DNA from: a virus | Strand: one strand, 5' to 3' | Virus record (IMG/VR): IMGVR_UViG_3300024346_000014 | Location: 1-64,000 of that record | Length of the DNA: 64,000 bases | Shown here: positions 4,549-35,736 of the stretch, in pieces | How positions within the stretch are numbered: position 1 is the stretch's first letter | Layout: the number at the start of each line of letters is the position of its first letter | Program-made: the position numbers and the translations under genes | Notes under the pieces: generated by a model | Seen by the model: only the letters and a program-made list of their open reading frames with translations | The model's database searches: none | Told to the model about the DNA's origin: nothing

Positions 4549-6258
4549 ATGTTAAAGTTTAAAGTCTTCAAAACTAGAAATTGTATAAAGTTAGTAGAAT
4601 GGGATAGCGATTCTGAAAAAGGAAGGTTGCGAGATCATTTTACTAAAAAATCAAAAGATGGAGATTTTAACGTATTAGTAGATAGAGGTATATGGGACGG
4701 AATGGACAATTTTATGTCTAAGGAAAATGAAATACCGATAGGACTTTGGAAAGAAATATATTCTTTTTCTGAAAAAAATCAAATTAAATGCGAAATATCA
4801 GGTCTAAAGGAAACTTTAAATTTAGAATATCAAAAAGAAAACTACACTGAATTTGTAAAAAGGCTTTTCAATGGTGTAGTTGATGAACATAATAATACCA
4901 TATATCCTAGGGATTATCAATTTGAAGCAGCGTATAAGGCGCTTCAGTATAAGTACTGTACTCAGGAATTAGCGACATCCGCAGGTAAGACTCTAATTTT
5001 TTATATTTTTAATTCTTATTTAAAACATACTGGTATAATTAGTAGACATAATAAAGCGTTGATGATAGTTCCTAATATTTCGTTAGTTGGCCAAACTGAA
5101 GAAAAATTTAAAATGTACTCTAATGGATTAGTTAATTGGAATATTTTAATGATAGGAGGTAGGAATAAGTTCTCAGAAGAGGAATTCAGAGAAGCGGACT
5201 TAGTAATATCTACTTATCAAAGCCTTATCAGTTTTGAAGAAAAAAGCTTGGATTCTCAGTTAACTTCAGCAGTTAAGAAAAAGATGAAGTTAGAGAGACT
5301 TAAAAAACCTAAAGAAAAAGAACTTGAAAAAGCAATTAATAAAGTAAGCAATTTAAAAGAAAAAATAGATTATGCAAAGCTTTTTAGAATGTTTGAATCA
5401 TATAGTGTAGTTAATGTTGACGAAACTCATAAATCAAGAGGATCTTCTATTTCTAATATAATATCAGCTTGTAATAATTGGAGATATAAACTGGGACTTT
5501 CTGGAACGGCAAAGGTATCTGAAGAATATTCTGATTTCTATAAGATACAGGAAAAGGTTGGGCCTTTAGTCATGACTCTTTCAGCAAAGCATTTAATTGA
5601 TCATGGGTACTCTCCTAATGTATCTATTCGCATGGTTTACTTAACATATAATAAATCAAACACAGCTGCTCAGGAGTACATTAAAATGAGAAAGAGCCCA
5701 GATGAGATTAAAAGAATGTATCGAGATAATAAAGAGTATGGTAGAGAAATGTTAACTATTGAAAAAGGAATCATATTTGAAAGTCAAGAGAGATTAGACC
5801 TAATAAGCGGCATGATAAGAAAATTCGGTAAGAATACTTTAATTCTCTTCTCAGACATTAAAAATGAATATGGTAAGAATATATGCAAGAAACTTCAAGA
5901 GTGGAACAAGGACACCTATTACATCGACGGGGGTGTTGAGAGTGAACAGCGAGATGAATATAAAGATGCAATGGAAAAAAATGAAGGTGTTATTATAGTT
6001 GCTAGTTTTGGTACCTTTGCAACTGGTATTGACCTTAAGAATGTTCATCATATTGTTTTTTCAGAAACCACTAAAGCTGAAATTACAATTAGACAAGCGA
6101 TTGGTCGAGGAATGAGAAAGCTTGCAAACAAAAACAAGGTCACCATCTGGGACCTTGTAGATAAATTAGATGGTTATTCAGTACGTCACTCTGAAGTCAG
6201 AGAAAAAATATATACTGAACAATCATTTCCTATTAAGAAACATCAAGTTAGTCTTTAA
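4549..6258 (+). CDS. uvsW: UvsW-like superfamily 2 DNA helicase
   Basis: 569 aa. An N-terminal ~110-residue accessory domain precedes a full SF2 core: Q-motif-like RDYQFEAAY, Walker A T-S-A-G-K-T at 143-148, motif II D-E-T-H at 291-294, LSGTAK motif III and RQAIGRGMRK motif VI at ~515. Order and length match T4 UvsW, an ATP-dependent helicase that unwinds R-loops and branched intermediates and drives the switch to recombination-dependent replication. A lysine-rich coiled insertion (~240-275) sits between motifs Ib and II. The DETH box replaces the more usual DEAH. Confidence 0.88.
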   Translation: MLKFKVFKTRNCIKLVEWDSDSEKGRLRDHFTKKSKDGDFNVLVDRGIWDGMDNFMSKENEIPIGLWKEIYSFSEKNQIKCEISGLKETLNLEYQKENYTEFVKRLFNGVVDEHNNTIYPRDYQFEAAYKALQYKYCTQELATSAGKTLIFYIFNSYLKHTGIISRHNKALMIVPNISLVGQTEEKFKMYSNGLVNWNILMIGGRNKFSEEEFREADLVISTYQSLISFEEKSLDSQLTSAVKKKMKLERLKKPKEKELEKAINKVSNLKEKIDYAKLFRMFESYSVVNVDETHKSRGSSISNIISACNNWRYKLGLSGTAKVSEEYSDFYKIQEKVGPLVMTLSAKHLIDHGYSPNVSIRMVYLTYNKSNTAAQEYIKMRKSPDEIKRMYRDNKEYGREMLTIEKGIIFESQERLDLISGMIRKFGKNTLILFSDIKNEYGKNICKKLQEWNKDTYYIDGGVESEQRDEYKDAMEKNEGVIIVASFGTFATGIDLKNVHHIVFSETTKAEITIRQAIGRGMRKLANKNKVTIWDLVDKLDGYSVRHSEVREKIYTEQSFPIKKHQVSL

Positions 6259-7555: not shown

Positions 7556-8110
7556 TTAGTGTATTTTTGATGCTATGACAATTCCTAACATTATCTTAGC
7601 ATGGTGTAATTGAAAATCTAAATATGAATCTATTGTAATTAATTCATTTACGTTTAGTTTTTCATCTTTTAACTTCTTATCTAATTCATCTATTTTATTT
7701 ATAATATCTTCAGAAAGCTCAACTTCGTTCATTTCCTGAAGACCGTTTAACACTGTTTTAAAAGTATCAGCGTTTTCAGCGGGTGATTTTATCTTTTTTA
7801 GAAACGTTTTAGCTTTACGTATAGATGTGAATTTAACTGTCATTGAATTAGAATCTAGCCCCTTGTCTATGCTTTTTCTAATCCCGTCTAATACGGTTAT
7901 GTCTTTAGATATCACATCTAAAAATAGTATATCAGTATCGTAAAAAGATATAACTATATCTTTATCTCGATATACATATTTAAAATTAAATAATTCGTCT
8001 TCAAATGAATTTTTTTGTTCATTTTCCTCTTCCTCTTCCCCTTTTCCTCCAGATATAATATATTGGTCAAATGGAAAAGATTTTAAAAATGGAAATAATT
8101 CGTATAACAT
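7556..8110 (-). CDS. Unknown acidic protein
   Basis: 184 aa from the ATG at 8110. A longer frame back to 8230 would overlap the divergent polymerase gene and lacks a leader, so the internal start is preferred. There is a run of glutamates after GGKGEEEEENEQ at ~21-32 and a helical C-terminal half (IINKIDELDKKLKDEKL). No family recognised. It shares a 49-bp divergent promoter region with the polymerase fragment. Confidence 0.6.
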   Translation of the reverse strand: MLYELFPFLKSFPFDQYIISGGKGEEEEENEQKNSFEDELFNFKYVYRDKDIVISFYDTDILFLDVISKDITVLDGIRKSIDKGLDSNSMTVKFTSIRKAKTFLKKIKSPAENADTFKTVLNGLQEMNEVELSEDIINKIDELDKKLKDEKLNVNELITIDSYLDFQLHHAKIMLGIVIASKIH

Positions 8111-8159
8111 ATTTAAAACCTTCTTTAAATTATTTATAAAAGATATTAAATATTTTATA

Positions 8160-9611
8160 ATGAATAAAGAATCTTTATACAAAAAATTAGACTTAGAACA
8201 ACTCGCAATTAAACTACTTATTAATTCCATATATGGTGCATTTGGAAATAAGTGGTTTTATTTCTTTAATGTAGATTTAGCGCAAAGTATAACATTGCAA
8301 GGACAAGACCTTATTAAATTTACAATTAAAGCCGTTAACTTTTATTTTAAAGAAAGGTGGCATTTAGATAACGAGCTTCATAAAAAACTAGGTATAGACA
8401 AATATGATATTAAACCTATAAATTCAGAAGCAGCTATTTATACAGATACCGATTCTATATATGTAGAGTTTGGTTCAGCTATTAATTCTATACAAGGGCT
8501 ACCTAAATTAACAGAAGAACAATATTTAAAGTTATGTATTAAAATTGATGAATACAGGTTAGCTGAATATTTTAATACAGCTTTTGACAAATACGGAAAA
8601 CATTTTAATACAGTCAATCAACAAAATTTTGAACTTGAAAACTTATCTGCTAAGGCCATGTGGCTGAAAAAGAAAAACTACGCCCTTAGAGTTTCATATG
8701 AACCCAATTCTGATCAAACTCTTTTAAAGGAAAAAGGTAAAGAGTATGATGTATTTAAGGGATTAGAAATGATAAAGGGTTCTTATCCAATATGGGCTAG
8801 AAATCATTTATCTAAGTTAACAAAAATAATCTTAGAAAAAGGATCGTCTATAAATCCAGAGGAGGATCTTATTCCTCTATTTGAATCTATAAAAAAAGAA
8901 ATGAAATTAAAAACAACTGATGAATTGGCTCAAACATTTAGTTGTAGGGTATATAACAAATATGTAAAAAATGAAACTAAGCTAACTTTACTTAAAGGAA
9001 TCCCTATATATGCAAGAGCAGCTGCTTACTATAATCACCTTTTAGTAATCAACGAATTAACGGGTAAATATCAAAAGGTTAAAGAAGGTGAAAAAATAAA
9101 GTATTATTATCCTAAAGAAAACAATAAGGAATGGGATGTGTTTGCATATTCACCTGGTAATTATCCAACAGAAGTTGCTCTTCCTTTAGATTATAGTAAA
9201 CAGTTTTTTTCACTGATAGTTGAGCCTATTAATAGACAATTAGTTGCATTAGGTTTAACTGAATTCAATGTTCACTTAAAAAGAAATATAAACATGGTTA
9301 AAACTGGTTCTAAAAAGCCATTGAGTGACGAAGACAAATATCCTCTTTATATAATAAATGAAAAAACATTAGAATACGAAGAGATACCTGAAAGATTTTG
9401 GAAAATAATAGGTAATCCTAATGCTGAAATACAAAGTAATGATTTCACAGAATACCTAAGTATAATATCTAAATATGGATTAAATACAAAAGTTGTTCCT
9501 AATTCCAAACTGCATCCTTTTAGAAAAAGAACAGCTAAGAGATTAAACATAGAATTAAAAGAATACTCTTCCAATGAAGATGAACAGCAGCAAGTAGAAC
9601 TTAATTTTTAA
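8160..9611 (+). CDS. 43: DNA polymerase family B, C-terminal part (T4 gp43-like), split gene
   Basis: 483 aa. It starts just before polymerase motif B (KLLINSIYGAFGN at 18-30), then motif C YTDTDS at 94-99, a KKKNYAL segment (KxY motif) and a thumb domain. The exonuclease domain and motif A (DxxSLYP) are absent, and the 49 bp upstream is a divergent intergenic region, so this is not a frameshift of an adjacent upstream half. It has its own ATG with an AT-rich leader and an intact frame, which suggests a functional two-piece polymerase whose N-terminal piece lies outside the window. T4 gp43 is ~900 aa, so about half is missing. The primase follows 3 bp downstream. Confidence 0.85.
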   Translation: MNKESLYKKLDLEQLAIKLLINSIYGAFGNKWFYFFNVDLAQSITLQGQDLIKFTIKAVNFYFKERWHLDNELHKKLGIDKYDIKPINSEAAIYTDTDSIYVEFGSAINSIQGLPKLTEEQYLKLCIKIDEYRLAEYFNTAFDKYGKHFNTVNQQNFELENLSAKAMWLKKKNYALRVSYEPNSDQTLLKEKGKEYDVFKGLEMIKGSYPIWARNHLSKLTKIILEKGSSINPEEDLIPLFESIKKEMKLKTTDELAQTFSCRVYNKYVKNETKLTLLKGIPIYARAAAYYNHLLVINELTGKYQKVKEGEKIKYYYPKENNKEWDVFAYSPGNYPTEVALPLDYSKQFFSLIVEPINRQLVALGLTEFNVHLKRNINMVKTGSKKPLSDEDKYPLYIINEKTLEYEEIPERFWKIIGNPNAEIQSNDFTEYLSIISKYGLNTKVVPNSKLHPFRKRTAKRLNIELKEYSSNEDEQQQVELNF

Positions 9612-9614
9612 AAC

Positions 9615-10757
9615 ATGAATATAGATTTAGATACTAATACTACTCTTCCGGAGTTCTTAAAAGAAGTTATGCTAAATAGATTTCCTGATGATCCCATTAA
9701 GCATAAAATAGACGAAGCTAATCCTAAAAAAATAAACTTAGCATGTCCAGTATGTGGAGATTCTGAAAAAAAGAAATCTAAACGTAGAGGTAATATCTAT
9801 TTGGAAAGCAATACTTATAAATGTTATAACGATGGATGCATGATATTTATGGATCTCGATAAATTTATATCTAGATATTGTCATGAATATAGTTTAATGC
9901 CACCTGACCTCTTTATTAAAGGCGGTCTTAAAACAAATGTTAAATCAAGGAAAAAATTATCTCTTCTTACTTTCTTAATAAATCAAGATTTAAAACATAA
10001 GTTGGTTGATTTAGAATACTTTGCAGATAGGTTTTCATTAAATAAAATAGATACTAACTCAGCTAATTCAAAATGTTCAAAATACATAATAAGCAGAGAA
10101 TTAGATAAGTGCGATTCCTTTTCAGAATGTTGCTATGAAGATTCTAAATCTGAAAAGATATTTATTTTTAATAAAGATAATGTTTCAAACAAAATATTAG
10201 GATATTCCGTCAGGTCCATAGACGATAATTATTGGGGCCCTAAATATAAAATGATGAACTATTCAGAAATAAATAGAGAAGTTTCTAAATTAGGAATGAC
10301 CGAAGAAGAGCTAAATGAAATAGATTCTCTCAATAACATATTTAATATATTGAATATAGATTTTAAGAAAAAAATAACAATATGCGAAGGTCAATTTGAT
10401 TCAATGTTTTTACATAATGGTATAGCATCAACCGGTGTAGGTAAAATAAAGGAGACTATAGCAATGCTCTCAGAGGACGCTAAAGTTAGGATATTATTCG
10501 ACAATGACAAAGCTGGAAAAACACAATCTATTAAACTTTTACAAGAAGGATATGAAGTCTTCATGTGGTCTAAGTTGATAAAAGATTTAAAGAATGACTT
10601 CCCAAAACATTTAATAGATATTAAAAAAATAACTGATGTGAATATGCTTTACATGTTTTTAATTAAATTAAACTCTTCATTTTTTAGTATAAAAGAGTTT
10701 AATAAAACACTAGACTCATATTTTACAAATTCACTGTTTGACATACTATATTTGTAA
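9615..10757 (+). CDS. 61: DNA primase (gp61/DnaG-like)
   Basis: 380 aa. An N-terminal zinc-binding domain shows Cys44-x2-Cys47 (CPVCGDS) and Cys70-x4-Cys75. A TOPRIM core follows with the acidic Glu in ICEGQFDS at ~258 and the D-x-D in LFDNDKAG at ~295-302. This is the architecture of T4 gp61-type primases that make RNA primers for lagging-strand synthesis. It sits 3 bp behind the polymerase fragment, so both pieces of the replisome are likely co-expressed. The C-terminal ~70 residues are unassigned. Confidence 0.83.
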   Translation: MNIDLDTNTTLPEFLKEVMLNRFPDDPIKHKIDEANPKKINLACPVCGDSEKKKSKRRGNIYLESNTYKCYNDGCMIFMDLDKFISRYCHEYSLMPPDLFIKGGLKTNVKSRKKLSLLTFLINQDLKHKLVDLEYFADRFSLNKIDTNSANSKCSKYIISRELDKCDSFSECCYEDSKSEKIFIFNKDNVSNKILGYSVRSIDDNYWGPKYKMMNYSEINREVSKLGMTEEELNEIDSLNNIFNILNIDFKKKITICEGQFDSMFLHNGIASTGVGKIKETIAMLSEDAKVRILFDNDKAGKTQSIKLLQEGYEVFMWSKLIKDLKNDFPKHLIDIKKITDVNMLYMFLIKLNSSFFSIKEFNKTLDSYFTNSLFDILYL

Positions 10758-14166: not shown

Positions 14167-14376
14167 ATGATAAAGAAAGGGATAATATCAGGCAAAGTTT
14201 TAAAAGGAAGTAATCCTGAGCAATTAAATGTTACACATGGACCTAATACTCATAAAGTACATAAGCATCCAGTAGACGATTTAATTGATAAGTCTATAGG
14301 GAAAACTGCTGAGTGGTTTGAACCTAACGGAAGTGTAATTATTCCAACTGAAAAGATAGAATATTTAAAATCTTAA
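14167..14376 (+). CDS. Small protein downstream of portal, unknown
   Basis: 69 aa, starting 2 bp after the portal stop, so probably translationally coupled. Contains VTHGPNTHKVHKHPVDDLID, His-rich and hydrophilic. Not recognised. It is the last gene of the rightward block and converges with the gp25-like gene across 7 bp. Confidence 0.55.
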   Translation: MIKKGIISGKVLKGSNPEQLNVTHGPNTHKVHKHPVDDLIDKSIGKTAEWFEPNGSVIIPTEKIEYLKS

Positions 14377-14383
14377 TACGTTT

Positions 14384-14758
14384 TTATCCGTAGAATATAC
14401 CAAATGGATTATCTCCATCGATATTTATTTTTAATACAAATACATCCCTGTCTTTTTCGTCTGTATATTTAGAAGGAGCCACGTCTATATTTTTAATTTT
14501 AGCAGATGCAACATATCTTTCTATCTGATTATTAGCCTCATTGGATAAATTAAAAGGGTCTGTTTCAAAATCAAAAAGATATTTATTTACATCTAACCCA
14601 AACTCAGGTTCTCCTAACACGCTTCCTCTTTCAGTTAAAACAGTCATTTTAATTTGAGATATTGCTTCTTCGGTATCATCCGATATTTGTAAAACTCCCT
14701 TTTTATAATTTGGATCAGTTTCAGTTCTCATATAAAAGTCTTTAAGTGTTGATGCCAT
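14384..14758 (-). CDS. 25: Baseplate wedge protein (gp25/GPW family)
   Basis: 124 aa. The segment DDTEEAISQIKMTVLTERGSV followed by LGEPEFGLDVNKYLFDF is the gp25/GPW consensus (D-x-x-x-A-x-x-x-I-x-x-L-x-T-x-x-G-E, then P-x-F-G). gp25 holds the baseplate inner ring and nucleates sheath assembly in contractile tails, so this phage should be a myovirus. Last gene of the leftward cluster 17545-14384. Confidence 0.8.
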   Translation of the reverse strand: MASTLKDFYMRTETDPNYKKGVLQISDDTEEAISQIKMTVLTERGSVLGEPEFGLDVNKYLFDFETDPFNLSNEANNQIERYVASAKIKNIDVAPSKYTDEKDRDVFVLKINIDGDNPFGIFYG

Positions 14759-14772
14759 TTTAATACATTATT

Positions 14773-15507
14773 TTATTGTCTATATAGATAAATCCAATCA
14801 GGAGTATTCTCCTTACTCATCATGTCTTCCACTGCCTTTATCTCAGCTTCAGCCGTAGATGTTATAGATTCATAACTAATAGCTACATTACCAGGTAGAG
14901 TATATTTAAAAGTCTGTAACATATGTGCTAGTCTAACTTTACATTTAGCTCTTACCCATCTTTGAAAGATTTCATCTTCATATAACTTATCTACTTCTAG
15001 TTTTTTATAAAACTGAACAATTGCATCTACCTTAGGAGTTCTTCCCACTATTGTAAGTAATTTAGTATTTTTGTTATAATCATACGCTAATGTGTCTAAT
15101 ACAAGTCCTCTGGTTAAATCTAAGAAGCTAAAGATTACTGTTCTATACATTATACTCTCTCCAATAAAAGGTGTTAGAAACACTTCTGAACCTATAAATT
15201 TTGACTCTGAAAAGTCTCTATCCATTGTTCCGAAAATAGAACCTCCAGTAGGTTCTTTACATTGTGTAACAAATTGTACACAATCTGGTAATTGTATCTG
15301 TCGTATTTTCTTAAATTGTTTAGAATCAAATAATTCTTTAGGAAGACTTAAATATCTGGGCTCAACGGCATGTCTCCAATTATCCCAAAAATACCTTGCA
15401 CCTATGTCAAGTTGCCTCTTAATCTCTTTCTCGGGTAAAGAATATGGTAACATTCCTGAAAATGTTATTTCTTCATTAATGTCTTTTATTAAATCTTCTT
15501 CAGTCAT
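14773..15507 (-). CDS. Putative neck/tail-connector structural protein
   Basis: 244 aa. The N-terminal half (KEIKRQLDIGARYFWDNW) and the mixed alpha/beta middle look like the family of virion connector proteins found near gp25 and neck genes in T4-like phages, but the match is by general pattern only. It lies 14 bp upstream of gp25 in the same leftward unit. gp13- or gp14-like neck roles are possible; I am not able to decide between them. Confidence 0.45.
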   Translation of the reverse strand: MTEEDLIKDINEEITFSGMLPYSLPEKEIKRQLDIGARYFWDNWRHAVEPRYLSLPKELFDSKQFKKIRQIQLPDCVQFVTQCKEPTGGSIFGTMDRDFSESKFIGSEVFLTPFIGESIMYRTVIFSFLDLTRGLVLDTLAYDYNKNTKLLTIVGRTPKVDAIVQFYKKLEVDKLYEDEIFQRWVRAKCKVRLAHMLQTFKYTLPGNVAISYESITSTAEAEIKAVEDMMSKENTPDWIYLYRQ

Positions 15508-15531
15508 CTGGTATTATTTATTTTAAAAAAT

Positions 15532-15984
15532 CTATTGGTTAGAACCGGGTCCGTTTCCTGAGGTTTTATCGCTAAATCTTATGTCTGAGGTATCTATCTC
15601 AACAGTACCGTCTTCTTTTTTAAGCTTAGCCAAAGCTCTATGATTTTTCTTATTAGACAACTCGTCCCTTTTTGATGCTCTGCTAGCCGCGTTAGATTGA
15701 ACCCCCTGTAAACATCTGTCCTTTATATTTCTTTTCCAATCGCTATGAAATATTAAATTAAGAGCTCTTGATATATCAACTTCTTCAATATCTCCTATGT
15801 TGTTATAAGGATCTCTTGCTAACTTTTCATTAGCTAATTCTTGAGCAATTGCCATTATACTAGTGTACATATTAGCTACTGCGCTGTTTACCATTCCAGT
15901 ATAGTTAGTATTATACACTACATTATCTTTTTCTTCATTTAGAAAAGATTCTATGTCGCTTATATGTTTGCTTTTATGCTTCAT
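15532..15984 (-). CDS. Putative capsid-targeted protein, unknown
   Basis: 150 aa. The leader MKHKSKHISDIESFLNE-EKD ends in L-N-E, a possible head-protease site. The middle is helical (AVANMYTSIMAIAQELANEKL) and the C-terminus is Lys-rich, then acidic. Its start overlaps the end of the next upstream gene (15974) by 11 bp. No known fold recognised. Confidence 0.58.
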   Translation of the reverse strand: MKHKSKHISDIESFLNEEKDNVVYNTNYTGMVNSAVANMYTSIMAIAQELANEKLARDPYNNIGDIEEVDISRALNLIFHSDWKRNIKDRCLQGVQSNAASRASKRDELSNKKNHRALAKLKKEDGTVEIDTSDIRFSDKTSGNGPGSNQ

Positions 15985-16198
15985 TGGCTTCTTCCTGATC
16001 TTCTATTTGTCTAAGTTGCTCTATTTCTATGTCTAATTTAGAAATGTCTGACTCAATTTGAGTTTTTTGAATGTCATCTGTAGTTTGCTTTAGTTTTTCT
16101 TGCAAAGCTTTTTTCTGATCTAATAACTGAATTTCTTTAGTATTAGTTTCAATAGATTCTGATACAAATCCTTTAAAATTTTTAATATAATTTTTCAT
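15974..16198 (-). CDS. Small capsid-targeted coiled-coil protein
   Basis: 74 aa. It begins MKNYIKNFKGFVSE-SIE, a near copy of the leader of 6297..6767, and continues as one long charged coiled coil (LLDQKKALQEKLKQTTDDIQ). After cleavage at V-S-E a ~60-residue helix would remain, reminiscent of small prohead-core proteins such as T4 gp67/gp68, though sequence similarity is not claimed. It lies 5 bp downstream of the 351-aa gene. Confidence 0.6.
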   Translation of the reverse strand: MKNYIKNFKGFVSESIETNTKEIQLLDQKKALQEKLKQTTDDIQKTQIESDISKLDIEIEQLRQIEDQEEANEA

Positions 16199-16203
16199 GT
16201 TCT

Positions 16204-17259
16204 CTATTTTAATTTTTCTGGAATATTTATCACCATTGATAATATCCTATTTACGTCTTCTATTTTATCTTTTCTTTTAAAATATGAAACGTCTTTATAT
16301 TTATTATTTATCTCACGAATTTTCTTAGATGTATCAGCTGTGTTGTTGTTTAATGAGTTTTTACAAAGCATAGTTAAATATAGCAAAATACCTAAATTTA
16401 ATTCATCGAATTGTTCATATATGTCTTCATGATCTTCATAATATCCATTTCCTTCAAAATAACCTTCATCTAAATTTTCATATTTTGATTCCAGTCTTCT
16501 TCCAATATAATTAACTTGTGCATCTAAAATGTCTAATATTCCATGTTTAGATAATCCAGTTTTTAGGATAGCTGCTGATATTGAAATTTTATTTTTAGTA
16601 TAGTTAACTACAATTTCATCTAAAGAAGGAAGATCGTTAGTAGAATTTATTCTAAAAATAGTATTAAATGTTTTAGAGTTTTCACTGTTTATAGGACCTA
16701 CTATTTCTGATGTATATTCACCGCTATCTCCTCCATCTGGAGGATTATAATAATCTCCGGGGTCTCCTTCAGTTGGAGTGTTTATCGTATCGTAAAAAAT
16801 CTCTACTCCTATTTCTAATATTTTATCATTTATAGTTCCATCTATATCGTCTTCTTCTAGATTAAGGTTACCTGAATCTATGTCGTTTAACATTGACATG
16901 CATATATTTTCATATTCAGTTTCACCTAAGCTTTTTTCTATTGATGTAAATTTCTCTACCATATAGTCTAAAGCTCTATCTGACTGAAGGTCTGATATTT
17001 CATTACGTTTATCATTATTGATATCTTCTTCACCAGTTGGGTCTTGTCCAAACCTTCCACCTCCTGCACCTCCAAAACCGCCTGATAAATAAGGAGAATT
17101 ATTCCAATGCATAGGCATTCTTCCTATTCCTCCTACATGAGTGTTTATAGATAGCGGAGTCGGTACACTAGGGTTTCTAACAAACATATGCTCAGGAGGA
17201 TATTCTATTGTGATAGCCCCAAAATGCTCTTTGATATATTCTTTGTAACTTTTTACCAT
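16204..17259 (-). CDS. Putative capsid-targeted protein, unknown
   Basis: 351 aa. Leader MVKSYKEYIKE-HFG (I-K-E). Then a Gly/Pro-rich stretch (SGGFGGAGGGRFGQDPTGEE at ~60-80), an acidic helical region, a second Pro/Gly/Asp linker (NPPDGGDSGEY) and a C-terminal helical domain. Not recognised. The low-complexity linkers fit a multi-domain virion protein. Leftward, with a 10-bp gap to the next upstream gene. Confidence 0.58.
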   Translation of the reverse strand: MVKSYKEYIKEHFGAITIEYPPEHMFVRNPSVPTPLSINTHVGGIGRMPMHWNNSPYLSGGFGGAGGGRFGQDPTGEEDINNDKRNEISDLQSDRALDYMVEKFTSIEKSLGETEYENICMSMLNDIDSGNLNLEEDDIDGTINDKILEIGVEIFYDTINTPTEGDPGDYYNPPDGGDSGEYTSEIVGPINSENSKTFNTIFRINSTNDLPSLDEIVVNYTKNKISISAAILKTGLSKHGILDILDAQVNYIGRRLESKYENLDEGYFEGNGYYEDHEDIYEQFDELNLGILLYLTMLCKNSLNNNTADTSKKIREINNKYKDVSYFKRKDKIEDVNRILSMVINIPEKLK

Positions 17260-17269
17260 ATTAAATGAT

Positions 17270-17545
17270 TTATAAATCCATCCAGGAATCTTTGTCCATC
17301 ATTGAATCAAACGCAGTAGGTTCTCTATCTGCTATTTCATCCCATGTCGGTATTTTATTCGATATTTCAACATCTACCGTTGGATTTTCCATAAGATGCA
17401 TCTTTAGAATGTTTTCAATTGTACTGTATTCTGCATCTAGTTGCATTTCCTCTAGTTTATCTAATAACTGATCTACGGTCATTGATAGTATTTCTTGTGG
17501 CCATTCTTCGTCGTGATGTTCAAATATTTTATTCCAACTTTTCAT
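17270..17545 (-). CDS. Small acidic capsid-targeted-like protein
   Basis: 91 aa. Starts MKSWNKIFE-HHDEEW, with F-E as a possible short cleavage site, then an acidic helical body (SMTVDQLLDKLEEMQLDAEY). It is the first gene of the leftward cluster that ends with gp25. Unknown function. Confidence 0.55.
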   Translation of the reverse strand: MKSWNKIFEHHDEEWPQEILSMTVDQLLDKLEEMQLDAEYSTIENILKMHLMENPTVDVEISNKIPTWDEIADREPTAFDSMMDKDSWMDL

Positions 17546-17579
17546 ATCAATAGGAGTTTATTTTATATATTTAGAATTA

Positions 17580-17591
17580 TTTAGTATAATA
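17580..17591 (+). promoter_or_regulatory. Promoter-like TTTAGTATAATA
   Basis: The 12-bp word lies 18 bp before the ATG at 17610 and faces away from the leftward cluster. Identical or one-mismatch copies stand at the same short distance from the genes at 18683, 31075, 33224 and 35017, so it is likely a -10-type element used by one of the sigma factors. Confidence 0.55.
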
Positions 17592-17609
17592 TTATAAAAT
17601 AAATCAAAT

Positions 17610-17825
17610 ATGTTCTTTAAAAAACGTAAAACAATTACTGAAACAGATGGATATAGAAGCGAAATACTTAAAGCTAAACTTAAGACTGATGTAATCAATA
17701 AACTTAATCAGATAAGAATGCACATAGATAAAGAAGATAATTGCTCATATGGAGCTTCTTACGAGCAAAACCTTAGAATAATACTAGAAGACCTAGATGA
17801 TATTTTATTAAATTGGAAAGATTAG
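17610..17825 (+). CDS. Small protein, unknown
   Basis: 71 aa, charged (FFKKRKTITETDGYRSEILK; EDNCSYGASYEQNLRIILED). First gene of the unit that also encodes the DNA glycosylase 4 bp downstream, so it may be coupled to it. No motif recognised. Confidence 0.55.
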   Translation: MFFKKRKTITETDGYRSEILKAKLKTDVINKLNQIRMHIDKEDNCSYGASYEQNLRIILEDLDDILLNWKD

Positions 17826-26625: not shown

Positions 26626-29600
26626 TTATCCCAATTCTTCAGTATGACCGGGTCTAGTTGCTCCTGTTGAAGATGATTCTTTTCTTTTTCCTTTAAAGGA
26701 ATCAGATTTGCTCCAATTAAATTTAGTTAATAATTCTGGAAATTTTGTAAATATTGAATCATACATTGAATATAGTTTCTTAGCGTCTGAACCATTTAAC
26801 TTCTTAGAATAATCCTTTATTTTATAATAAATCATTACTCTAGTTAGCATTAGATTAATAATATCCATATGCTCAGGGTTCATGTTCTTAATATATTGAA
26901 ATACGTTTTCTAATTGATTTATATAATCAGCGGAACCTGATCTAAGTGACAAATCAGGCACTACCTCTGCTCTGGTTAATAATATAGAAACCATTTTATT
27001 AATTAGCGCGTTTGCTTTTTTAGTATCTATGCTTCTAATTTTAACCAGCTTATCAAAAGGATTAGGCGCTAGTTCCCATGTAGTTGCTAGTTGATCTATA
27101 TTCTTATCTTTTTCTATAATATCACTAAAAAGTTTTAGTTTATTTCCGTTATCATCTTTTTTAGTAGTATTTTGATCTAACAAAGAATTTGCGCTTTGTA
27201 ATATCTTAGATAAATCTATTCCATATATAATATCTTTAAAGTCCTGTATGTTTTTATTACTTGATAATATGTCTTTGGGGTTGTCTTTCTTTATATTCTT
27301 TATAGCTTGACTTAGAGATTCTCTGTATCTAGATATTATGTTCATGTATTGATCTATCTTTATTTTTTTAGATCTTAATTCTTTTAATAAAGAAGTTCTA
27401 GTACTAACTTTAGTATCAGGAGGAAGTTCGTTAATTTTATTTCTTAGTTCTACATATTCTTTTTTAATTTTATTAAAGTCGTAAGGTTCACTAACTAAAC
27501 GTATGTCTTCTTCGCTAATAAAGTTTCTTCGTAAATCATCAAGGGTTTTAGAATCTTTTATTGTATCGATTATTCCACCCTGTCCGCCTTCTCCGACCAA
27601 TCTTCTCTTTATAAAATCTTGATACATCTTTAATAGTTTACTATTATCTTTTATTTCATCTAAATGCATCTTAGATAAACTAGAACCAACAGTTGTTCTA
27701 ATGTATAGCTCCTTTAAAGCTGTTGGCAAAATTTTCCATATTCGAATATCAATACCTTTTGTATTTCTATTATTTAAAAATTCTGTTATTTTTTGTTGAG
27801 TAAACCAGTTTAATTGTAACCATTCTTCTTTTTCATCATAGTTCATAGCTTCAAATCTATTCGCTGAAATATTAATATTATTGACATCAGAACTACCTGC
27901 TTGATTATCTCGTGTTCTTTCGCTTTTAGATACATCCATTGGTAAGAGTATATTTCTTTCTAACTTACCTAATTCCTCGTCAGAAGGTACATAATAGAAT
28001 GGAAGATCTATTATGTCTTGAGTTACTTGAGGTGACGATGTATCTATAGAGCCTCCTCCTCCGGTTGATCTCTGCTGTCTTCTTATACTTTCATTTTCAG
28101 TTGAAGGCCATATTTTTTCAGCGCATTGTTTTAAAGTTAAATGCTCGCCGTCGCCTTTAGCTTTGTCTCCCCATTGTCCATTATTAGATGCGCCTACTAA
28201 CCAATATGTATTTTCATTAGGTTTCCAATCCTTAACAAAAAGAACCGCAATATGATAATTATCATAGAATACTCTTGCATTTTCATTTGCTACTAATTCT
28301 GTAGTCTCAGGGCTTAATCTAGGTGTAGCACTTGATCCTCTCCATGTTCTATACAACCTTCCTAAACCTTGTCCATCTTCTGTGTTTAAGTATTCTGATA
28401 TCTTTTCAGCTTCAAAAACAGCTCGTTTTTTGTTTTCTATGAAGTAAATGGTTTGTCTTTCGTTTGCGTTTCTTCTATATGTACTATACCAACTATCGCC
28501 GCTTGCTATACACCATGAATAGGATCCAGTATTTGCACCATTTTCTCTTAACAATTTTTCAAATGATTTTCTAGTGTCTACACAGAATTTAAAGCTTAAA
28601 ATTCTATGTATTCTATAGTGTTCATTATCTTCAACTATTTCTCCTCCGACAGGTTTAAGAGTACCATTGTTCCCCAGGCCTTCTAATTTAGATATTCCTT
28701 TATCAAATGTTAACGCACCTATTGTAGCTTGATCCATTTTACCAGAAGGTTTTTGTAAACCTCCGCTTAAAATAGCTTTTATAGTCGTTAATTCTTTTTT
28801 AATATTTGATATTTTTTCGTACTCTATTATTATATCGTCATTGATTGCTTGTCGTATAGATGGATCTTCTTCAAGAGTAGATTGTTGAACTTTATTTTTT
28901 AATTGCTCTTCTTTTTGTCTAATGATATCTTCAGTTGTAGTTATAAAACTTGCACTTTTAGATAACTGTATTTTTTCTTTAGCTGAAAGATTAGTTAATC
29001 CTACACTTTTATATTTGTCGTATATTTCTTGCCAATTGTAATCATTTGATATACTGTCTTTGAAACCTCGTTGAAACTCTCTTATCTTTGACTCCAGCTC
29101 GCTATTATAAAATCCTGTTTTTTCTAAACCTAGTTTATCTTGTATAGTAGATATCGCTGGGTTTATGTCACCTTGTTTAAGTGAAGATACAACCGGTATT
29201 TTTGCAATTCTAGAAACATAATCTACTAATGCTCTTAAACTTGAAAAATCATATTGTTCAATATTTCTTCTATTGTTTATATCATTGTCTACTCTAACTC
29301 CAGGTATATCAGATGTTAATATATCTTTTAACTCTCCTTTTGGGTTATTAGTAATTCTATCGAATTTTGAAATATAATCAACTACTATATCTCTTTCAGT
29401 TGTTTGAGACCATTTATCTAAAATATCCTTTTTACTTTCTAATAATTGATATATGTTCCATCCAAATATATGTTTATTAACTTCACTTAATGAAGGGTCT
29501 TGGTTTAGTGATATTCCTGCACCATTAAGCAAGTCTCTAAGAGCATCGTCACTTGGAGCATATGGTTCGTTATCTGGATCGTTGGATGGTCCAGCTGGAC

Positions 29601-30777
29601 CATCATCATTTCTTCTAAAGCCTGTTCCTTCAAGTCCGTCTATATAAAATTCTTCAAATAGTTCATATGGCTTGTTTGAATCGTCGCTAAAAATAGCTTT
29701 ACTTACTCTTAAAAAAAGATCATCGTCTAATTTGTAAAACCTAGAAAGTACATTTAACATCATCGCTGGATTTCTTTCACGTATTTCACGTTGTTCTAAT
29801 AAATTATCTTCTACTTTTATAAAAAACTCTTTAAACTTACTAACCATACCCGGTCCATATTGTAAACCTTCTCTTTCTGAATATTGAGTTCCAGATAAAG
29901 ACATCATCGTATCCTCATCTTCTGCGTTTAGTTCAGGATCTCTATGCATTGAAATTAATTCAAGTATACCTTTTATTATTTCATGAACTAATATTAAAAT
30001 AGTATATCCACTTGCTTCAATAGTGTATTTGTTAGTATCTTCGTTCCATACAAGCTCAGCTCTACCTAATGCAGGTGATTGTGTCATTACTTGATGCATA
30101 AGTTCTTTTGGAACCTTTGAGTATAAACCAAATGTTTTATCCATTAGTTTATAATAATCCCCAAAGCTAACTCCTTCTATTTCAGTATCTCCTGTAATAA
30201 AATCATCTTTTATAGATGATGCAAACCCCTGTGTTAAAGCATTTTGTATAGCCCTTACGTCTATCTCTTTTTTTAATTTGGGATTTTCGCTTTCTATTTC
30301 TTTTTTAACCTCTTTAAATCTTTCGGGTTCAACTCCTATTATATTAGACTTAGCATCCATTAAATCAGAGTCATTTAAAATTTTTAATTTAAAATCTAAT
30401 TTGTTAATGTCGAATCCCTTTCCATCAAATATTTCAGAAACTATTTCCATAGCTTTTTCAACTTTATCCTCATTTGACATTTCAGATTCAACGTTTCGTA
30501 TAGAAGATAATAATTCTAATATATCTTTACTATCTTGCATGGCTCCTTGGACGTCTTCTGGTTTAAACTGACCCTTTAAACTTCTCATAAAATCATCAGA
30601 TAATCCTAGATTGTCTTCTAGTGATTCATTAGAATCTAAACTAATTAGCTTATTAAACCTTTGAGATATTTTCCTCAGCAGCATCTCCGCGGTCATGGGA
30701 GTAGACAAAGCTTTTTTGATAAGAGGCTTCTCTACAATTTCCTGAACATATTCGTTAAGTTTAAGTAAATACTTCAT
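26626..30777 (-). CDS. Giant (1383 aa) putative capsid-targeted protein with peptidoglycan-binding-like segment
   Basis: Leader MKYLLKLNEYVQEIVE-KP. Near 535-575 is a PG_binding_1-like repeat (INPAISTIQDKLGLEKTGFY, then ESKIREFQRGF). A compact domain at ~740-900 contains SYSWCIASGDSWYST and YWLVGASNNGQWGDKAKGDG, which resembles a domain I have seen in other large phage proteins but cannot name. The C-terminal third is helical and ends SSSTGATRPGHTEELG. A packaged or ejected protein that touches the cell wall is a reasonable inference; there is no transmembrane segment. It is by far the largest gene here and lies leftward between two other leader-bearing genes. Confidence 0.62.
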   Translation of the reverse strand: MKYLLKLNEYVQEIVEKPLIKKALSTPMTAEMLLRKISQRFNKLISLDSNESLEDNLGLSDDFMRSLKGQFKPEDVQGAMQDSKDILELLSSIRNVESEMSNEDKVEKAMEIVSEIFDGKGFDINKLDFKLKILNDSDLMDAKSNIIGVEPERFKEVKKEIESENPKLKKEIDVRAIQNALTQGFASSIKDDFITGDTEIEGVSFGDYYKLMDKTFGLYSKVPKELMHQVMTQSPALGRAELVWNEDTNKYTIEASGYTILILVHEIIKGILELISMHRDPELNAEDEDTMMSLSGTQYSEREGLQYGPGMVSKFKEFFIKVEDNLLEQREIRERNPAMMLNVLSRFYKLDDDLFLRVSKAIFSDDSNKPYELFEEFYIDGLEGTGFRRNDDGPAGPSNDPDNEPYAPSDDALRDLLNGAGISLNQDPSLSEVNKHIFGWNIYQLLESKKDILDKWSQTTERDIVVDYISKFDRITNNPKGELKDILTSDIPGVRVDNDINNRRNIEQYDFSSLRALVDYVSRIAKIPVVSSLKQGDINPAISTIQDKLGLEKTGFYNSELESKIREFQRGFKDSISNDYNWQEIYDKYKSVGLTNLSAKEKIQLSKSASFITTTEDIIRQKEEQLKNKVQQSTLEEDPSIRQAINDDIIIEYEKISNIKKELTTIKAILSGGLQKPSGKMDQATIGALTFDKGISKLEGLGNNGTLKPVGGEIVEDNEHYRIHRILSFKFCVDTRKSFEKLLRENGANTGSYSWCIASGDSWYSTYRRNANERQTIYFIENKKRAVFEAEKISEYLNTEDGQGLGRLYRTWRGSSATPRLSPETTELVANENARVFYDNYHIAVLFVKDWKPNENTYWLVGASNNGQWGDKAKGDGEHLTLKQCAEKIWPSTENESIRRQQRSTGGGGSIDTSSPQVTQDIIDLPFYYVPSDEELGKLERNILLPMDVSKSERTRDNQAGSSDVNNINISANRFEAMNYDEKEEWLQLNWFTQQKITEFLNNRNTKGIDIRIWKILPTALKELYIRTTVGSSLSKMHLDEIKDNSKLLKMYQDFIKRRLVGEGGQGGIIDTIKDSKTLDDLRRNFISEEDIRLVSEPYDFNKIKKEYVELRNKINELPPDTKVSTRTSLLKELRSKKIKIDQYMNIISRYRESLSQAIKNIKKDNPKDILSSNKNIQDFKDIIYGIDLSKILQSANSLLDQNTTKKDDNGNKLKLFSDIIEKDKNIDQLATTWELAPNPFDKLVKIRSIDTKKANALINKMVSILLTRAEVVPDLSLRSGSADYINQLENVFQYIKNMNPEHMDIINLMLTRVMIYYKIKDYSKKLNGSDAKKLYSMYDSIFTKFPELLTKFNWSKSDSFKGKRKESSSTGATRPGHTEELG

Positions 30778-34914: not shown

Positions 34915-34986
34915 AATAAACTTAAATCTTTTTATTATTTATAAGAGAACTTAGTTTAATAAAATGGTTTAATACTTTAAATAAAT

Positions 34987-34998
34987 TTTAGTATAATA
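34987..34998 (+). promoter_or_regulatory. Promoter-like TTTAGTATAATA
   Basis: Exact word 18 bp before the exonuclease ATG at 35017, heading the exonuclease-thymidylate synthase unit. Confidence 0.55.
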
Positions 34999-35016
34999 AT
35001 TAAAAATTACAGATAT

Positions 35017-35736
35017 ATGTTTACAAAAAACGAAATTACAAAAATGATTTTCTTTGATGTTGAAACGGCTACTACGTTTAAAGACCATAGTGAATTATCA
35101 GAAAGAATGAAAAAGCTATGGTCAAAGAGATGCGAATGGCTTAGAAAAAATTACGAAGACAACGAAGGTAAAACCGATAGCGAACTTTATAGTTACAAAG
35201 GCGCTCTTCATCCTGAATTTAATAAAGTACTTTGCGTATCCTTTGGTAGAGTTGAAATAGATTCAACGGGGGAAGTAACTAGTAATGTTCATACATGCAG
35301 TGGCCATGATGAAAAGGAAGTATTACAAAATACATTAAAGGTATTTGAAAAATTTTACACGAGTGGATTTAAATTTGTTGGACATAACATAAAAGGTTTT
35401 GATATTCCTGTTATTTTAAAAAGAGCTATTATAAATGGGATAAGTATACCTAGTTTCTTGCATTTGCATAATCTTAAACCTTGGGAAATGCCTTTTGTAG
35501 ATACATCTGACGTTTGGAATTTCGGAGCATGGGGAGGAACAAAAGTTTCATTAGACCTAATGTCAGCTAGCTTAAACGTGCCTACTCCTAAAGATGCAAT
35601 GGATGGTAGCATGGTATCAGGAGCATACTGGTTCGAAGACAAGCTGGATGATATCGTAACATATTGTGAAAAAGATGTAGTTGCAACTGCAAACGTTGTT
35701 CTAAGATTAGGGAATCATAACATAATTGAAATATAA
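35017..35736 (+). CDS. DnaQ-like 3'-5' exonuclease (family B polymerase exo-like), stand-alone
   Basis: 239 aa. ExoI motif FFDVETA near residue 15 (Asp, Glu), ExoII-like HNIKGFDIP at ~127-135, and ExoIII YCEKDVVAT (Y-x(3)-D) near 220. This is the DEDDy arrangement of family B polymerase proofreading domains, here as a separate gene. It could supply proofreading to the split polymerase or act alone in repair or host DNA breakdown. It heads a three-gene unit with overlapping genes. Confidence 0.75.
   Translation: MFTKNEITKMIFFDVETATTFKDHSELSERMKKLWSKRCEWLRKNYEDNEGKTDSELYSYKGALHPEFNKVLCVSFGRVEIDSTGEVTSNVHTCSGHDEKEVLQNTLKVFEKFYTSGFKFVGHNIKGFDIPVILKRAIINGISIPSFLHLHNLKPWEMPFVDTSDVWNFGAWGGTKVSLDLMSASLNVPTPKDAMDGSMVSGAYWFEDKLDDIVTYCEKDVVATANVVLRLGNHNIIEI

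Follow-up and report, generated by a model that had tools for sequence, protein, structure and literature searches.

The window analyzed here, the whole 64-kb stretch of DNA that forms the first part of a 125,649 bp viral contig, carries on its plus strand a gene for what we refer to as the C-half of a T4-type family B DNA polymerase (Table 1). The predicted protein opens with MNKESLYKKLDLEQLAIKLLINSIYG, reaches motif B 17 residues further on, and comprises the second fingers helix, motif B, motif C, and the thumb. As the earlier note had described, the ORF lacks the rest of the enzyme: an exonuclease domain and motif A were searched for in it by profile and alignment, and neither is present. 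Accordingly truncated matches were obtained with all references. The C-half matches the T4-type DNA polymerase family PHROG_262 only at positions 503-839 of 856 (E 1e-54) and Pfam DNA_pol_B (PF00136, 453 positions) only from position 148 (148-238, E 2e-17), and RB69/T4 gp43 aligns with it from residue ~528-556 onward. Its best PHROG is PHROG_1918 (382 positions, matched from 33), which looks like a family of similarly short polymerases; the C-half would thus exist as a family. By its sequence, motif C is predicted to provide, with D96 and D98, one side of the catalytic metal site. The last ~110 residues (9270-9611, ending VELNF) form a C-terminal extension that is conserved in close relatives and largely missing in megaphages; a clamp-binding role for it is a guess.

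Table 1. The C-half gene, its motifs, and its neighbors in the window.
Feature	Position	Strand	Basis
C-half (483 aa) of the split T4-type family B DNA polymerase	8160..9611	+	PHROG_262, PHROG_1918, PF00136, RB69 gp43 alignment
17-residue head ahead of motif B (second fingers helix, first residues of the chain)	8160..8210	+	start and head kept in 91-54% relatives
Motif B, KLLINSIYG	8211..8237	+	K18, N22, Y25, G26 invariant
Motif C, YTDTDS	8439..8456	+	Y94, D96, T97, D98, S99 invariant
KKKNY (KxY-type) motif	8667..8681	+	K171, K172, Y174 invariant
Divergent gene 5' of the C-half	7556..8110	-	mechanical ORF extends to 8230; relatives suggest that the gene starts at 8110
49-bp intergenic stretch (probably promoter/leader)	8111..8159	.	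part conserved in relatives
Primase-like gene (PHROG_47, Toprim_2) directly 3' of the C-half	9615..10757	+	arrangement kept in relatives

In IMG/VR, the same C-half occurs at seven loci (54-100% identity), where its start is unchanged and most of its neighbors are shared. Because independent contigs (54-91% identity) show this start as well, we rejected the readings of the ORF as a remnant, a contig-edge or mis-assembly product, or a chance frame. In one near-identical contig (L013, 8001-9451), a one-base length difference breaks the C-half frame, probably through a sequencing or assembly error. Upstream, a divergent gene and the 49-bp intergenic stretch leave no place for an N-terminal half directly 5' of the C-half. 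Within this stretch, probably a promoter or leader, an A+T-rich block, TTATTTATAAAAGATATTAAATA (and close variants), is kept in relatives of 71-91% identity. Elsewhere in the window, a 1383-aa ORF (26626-30777, minus strand) has no Pfam or PHROG match.

The missing part, which the earlier note had expected to be encoded elsewhere, was indeed found in the same virus. A search of the rest of the 125.6-kb contig for an N-half found none. The only other polymerase-like match of the contig, at 34984-35427 (gene 35017-35736, plus strand), was rejected as a candidate, being a stand-alone PF10108 exonuclease in which motif A is missing; its product is a 3'-5' exonuclease akin to the exonuclease domain of PolB, and similar matches occur in relatives. 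An N-half is present in the contigs of four of the seven C-half loci. One of these, 3300027751_001479, is 99.98% identical to the window across 15,346 bp and therefore represents the same virus; its N-half (471 aa) lies on the same strand as the C-half, 56 kb upstream. In this virus the N-half and the C-half sit on two contigs joined via their 15-kb overlap, while in relatives both halves lie on one contig, with a spacing of 54-58 kb in three further cases. Comparison of the far ends of the two overlapping contigs to close the genome found no overlap.

The N-half matches PHROG_262 at 97-484, PHROG_2062 (502 positions), the Pfam exonuclease domain, and DNA_pol_B at 17-140. It contains invariant Exo I-III motifs (D101-I-E103, N214...D219, and Y310-N311..D314) and motif A (DFASMYP, 402-408), of which D402, F403, S405, Y407, and P408 are invariant in both N-half alignments. 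The catalytic residues of both halves are invariant in alignments of 26-28 members. Thus Exo I-III, motif A, motif B, DTDS, and KxY, which characterize T4-type gp43, are all present across two chains, but the single continuous chain of gp43 is replaced by two genes 56 kb apart. With motif A on the N-half and motif C on the C-half, the catalytic Asp pair would come from two polypeptides, as the earlier note had predicted.

The position of the cut follows from the ends of the two ORFs. The N-half ends in RLYNKRVETKKKMKTL-stop, past the first fingers helix (last residues KKKMKTL-stop), and the C-half begins with MNKESLYKKLDL, at the second fingers helix; the cut is therefore at the fingertip turn. 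The earlier placement of the split within the palm needs correction in that the cut falls between the two palm segments, although motifs A and C are on different chains as stated. In RB69 numbering, the N-half ends at ~489 and the C-half starts at ~528, flanking the fingertip. The halves are complementary on PF00136 (17-140 and 148-238, a gap of only seven positions), on PHROG_262 (97-484 and 503-839), and on RB69 (80-489 and 528-792). The motif A-motif B distance, summed over both chains, is only ~87 residues, compared to 109-115 in intact cyanophage-type polymerases and 149 in T4, so the fingers are short here. In the megaphage subclade both junction ends are longer (~98 + 34). Between the two subclades, the lengths of the N tail and the C head covary, in effect a single phylogenetic contrast; this would suit a shared helical dock.

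Among the loci fetched, there were 94 lone N-half frames, 103 lone C-half frames, and 8 intact polymerases, counts in which some contigs are represented more than once and which come, like the loci in the tree, from queries built from the halves. All sampled relatives in the lineage, including Lak and other 0.4-0.7-Mb phages, are split at the fingertip turn. In a tree of the joined halves (midpoint-rooted, with some long-branched rows), 25 of the 25 sampled members fall in one clade with support 100/100 that holds no intact member, and the intact loci placed in the tree are all outside it. Three other split polymerases were placed elsewhere, among intact ones: those of Aeromonas 44RR and Acinetobacter Apostate with T4, and that of Agrobacterium phage Atu_ph07 with SCTP-2 and PA5oct. 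The distance between the halves varies considerably within the lineage. It is 38-67 kb in ten viruses, including that of the window, and 95-281 kb in most larger phages, reaching 618 kb along the linear LR756501 record; it is 221 kb in Lak-A2, ~13 kb in Lak-B8, 10 kb in LR756500, and 1.2-3.5 kb in the cultured phages pT24, PTm1, PAU, and MA9V-2.

The gene neighborhoods give some indication of how this arrangement arose. S-RIM32 and phiM12 have an intact polymerase gene followed by UvsX and then the gp41 helicase. In the window's virus, the N-half is followed by two small genes, UvsX, one further gene, and a DnaB-like helicase, and the C-half is flanked by the divergent gene and the primase-like gene. 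As the N-half lies beside UvsX and the helicase like the intact polymerase, it appears to be at the ancestral place, and the C-half to be the piece that moved. Relatives with the halves spaced by 1-4 kb, in some of which TnpB or endonuclease genes lie close by, look like an earlier stage, an order of events that we infer from the present arrangements.

Other interruptions were observed in these relatives. Inteins or split inteins, with endonuclease genes, occur at motif C of the C-half in three retrieved loci (L018, 4887-7038; L257, 4196-7002; L245, reverse strand, 14318-17718); the phages with motif C inteins or split inteins are Lak-A2, PTm1, and LR756500, and in them the same gene has thus been broken twice, in different ways. 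In six megaphage loci (L067, L069, L076, L100, L102, and L104, near position 6000), the C-half frame opens at or near motif B (LKLVLNGSYG) past unrelated sequence, which suggests an intron inserted at motif B that matches none of the Rfam families. A UvsW-like helicase gene is interrupted in a further locus (L014, 2584-5410), with an intein-like C-terminal sequence, NYFANGINVANCH, between the pieces.

AlphaFold models were made of the single halves, using alignments of 26-28 sequences. The N-half is confidently modeled in its N-terminal and exonuclease parts but not over residues 373-416 of the palm, which include motif A; the C-half model has uncertain stretches at 15-45, around motif B, and at 155-203. 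RB69 gp43 is the top structural match for both halves, although the superposition of the C-half is poor (TM 0.35). Weak confidence in the palm is as expected for an obligate pair, and shallow alignments could give the same result; with so little confidence in this region, the models do not amount to structural proof.

Based on these features, the virus very probably has a replicative T4-type family B polymerase that consists permanently of two chains and is assembled without splicing. Chain N (471 aa) would begin with the N-terminal domain and the proofreading exonuclease and continue through the first segment of the palm, where motif A lies, to the first helix of the fingers; chain C (483 aa) would start at the second fingers helix, which carries motif B, and add the second segment of the palm, which carries motif C, as well as the thumb. 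The two chains, translated separately from genes far apart, may dock non-covalently through the palm sheet that they share and through the two antiparallel helices of the fingers; the two catalytic aspartates would then be supplied by different proteins. Assembly of the active site from two chains is predicted from the sequence, and the docking, activity, and essentiality of the pair are likewise predictions. The split probably arose once, at the polymerase locus of an ancestor of these large phages, and the C-half would have moved later, in the window's virus to a place beside the primase-like gene.

Several alternatives to a permanently two-chain polymerase were considered. A split intein or a trans-spliced intron could unite the halves after their expression into an ordinary one-chain polymerase. 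The same gene is indeed broken by split inteins and homing endonucleases in PTm1, Lak-A2, and LR756500, though at motif C, and MIJ3 PolB carries a split intein (PMC6892783). However, a split intein would place an N-intein after the N-half and a C-intein before the C-half, whereas the ORFs end and start at fingers helices, with ends that are conserved in relatives and devoid of intein blocks. In the window's virus, both ends are free of inteins, known intron families, and homing endonucleases; Rfam introns are absent near both halves and near those megaphage C-halves in which the frame starts at motif B; and the DNA directly 3' of the N-half stop is little conserved between relatives. Joining at the fingertip is therefore very improbable. 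The earlier note had named a split intein and a complete polymerase gene elsewhere as findings that would overturn its proposal, and neither was encountered, the latter in a search of the two overlapping contigs and the long relatives; the genome may be incomplete, and a very divergent polymerase would escape such a search.

We give hardly any credence to the idea that the C-half is a decaying remnant in a genome replicated by another polymerase. Lacking motif A, the C-half could not work alone, as a remnant might not; but its motifs are all invariant and the N-half is retained alongside it. As to selection and ALTERNATIVES, dN/dS against a 90%-identical relative is 0.047 for the C-half, 0.055 for the N-half, and 0.047 for a PhoH control (approximate values, since dS is 1.2-1.3), and both halves are under strong purifying selection. 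Nor is there an obvious substitute: no intact PolB was found in the lineage, and no PolA or Pol III alpha in seven records, four of them phages of 541-735 kb, divergent forms of which could escape Pfam. In another improbable scenario, the N-half is a stand-alone exonuclease or RNA-binding regulator, the C-half an accessory protein, and a divergent polymerase such as a split minimal Pol III replicates the genome. A divergent split Pol III alpha is described for the group of Lak-B8 and PTm1 in PMC7824862, and Pfam searches could miss it; Pol III alpha PF07733 is absent from the records searched, and both halves match family B. Against separate functions, the two chains together retain motifs A, B, and C, a finding best accounted for if these motifs meet in one active site.

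An extension of the two-chain polymerase is that the separation of its genes is put to use. The halves lie in different transcription units (the N-half with UvsX and the helicase, the C-half with the primase-like gene and the divergent promoter), so the supply of one half could set the timing or amount of polymerase, and the longer, matching helical tails (N) and heads (C) of the 0.4-0.7-Mb subclade could form a dedicated coiled-coil dock replacing the covalent fingertip. We consider this possible but rather unlikely.

A catalytic metal site made of two proteins has apparently been kept across a wide radiation of phages, from cultured phages of ~210-230 kb to Lak and 735-kb megaphages. If so, covalent continuity between the palm segments would be dispensable for genome replication. 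The cultured phages PAU, pT24, PTm1, and MA9V-1/2 offer systems for studying the assembly of a split replicase, and split genes would account for the partial or duplicate polymerases in automated annotations of these genomes.

Polymerases in pieces are known from other systems. In Nanoarchaeum equitans, the pieces are ligated by a split intein. A split PolB in Methanothermobacter thermautotrophicus was reportedly described by Kelman in 1999. The PolB of this archaeon consists of two polypeptides (PMC7776575), a two-polypeptide family B enzyme as here, but from a different, archaeal PolB branch. The polymerase genes of MIJ3 are also in pieces, but these are intein-ligated (PMC6892783), unlike the present cut, where no intein is found. 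Closer are gp43A and gp43B of the Straboviridae (Aeromonas 44RR and 25, Acinetobacter Lazarusvirus), where the cut likewise falls in the fingers, separating motif A from motif B, and yields two genes with no intein at that point; the two proteins of phage 25 co-purify and polymerize (PMC2988022). Those halves share one locus, 49 bp apart in 44RR and ~3 kb apart with MobE in Apostate, in contrast to 56 kb here. A common origin with the Straboviridae split is not seen in the tree, where the window's clade is separate (100/100); because 44RR and Apostate group with T4, their splits are independent of it. Atu_ph07 gp276 and gp277 are also cut between motifs A and B, but the genes are adjacent (18 bp apart), unlike those of the window's lineage, and as SCTP-2 and PA5oct, with which Atu_ph07 groups, are both continuous across the region, this is another independent split. 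The fingers thus appear to be a breakpoint that has been used repeatedly.

Within the split clade itself, PAU, pT24, PTm1, and MA9V-2 have the same fingers cut between motifs A and B and two annotated polymerase genes, with halves 1-4 kb apart vs. 56 kb here, and PTm1 adds the motif C split intein. Two polymerase ORFs are listed for MA9V-1 (PMC10537231) and for Atu_ph07 (PMC6102473), and the available portions of both papers do not describe a split. In the available portions of Iyer et al. 2021 (PMC7824862), the family B polymerase of a jumbo-phage group including Lak-B8 and PTm1 is handled as an ordinary one, and a split minimal Pol III alpha encoded by two distant genes is reported; that enzyme, with a pol beta fold, belongs to another polymerase family but has the distant two-gene layout in common with the split described here. 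In the literature searched, mostly non-subscription papers other than the gp43 splitting studies, no account came to light of a split that is both lineage-wide and widely separated. Smaller splits of family B polymerases are already known, and as far as we could find, it is the fixed arrangement across a whole lineage that is apparently new.
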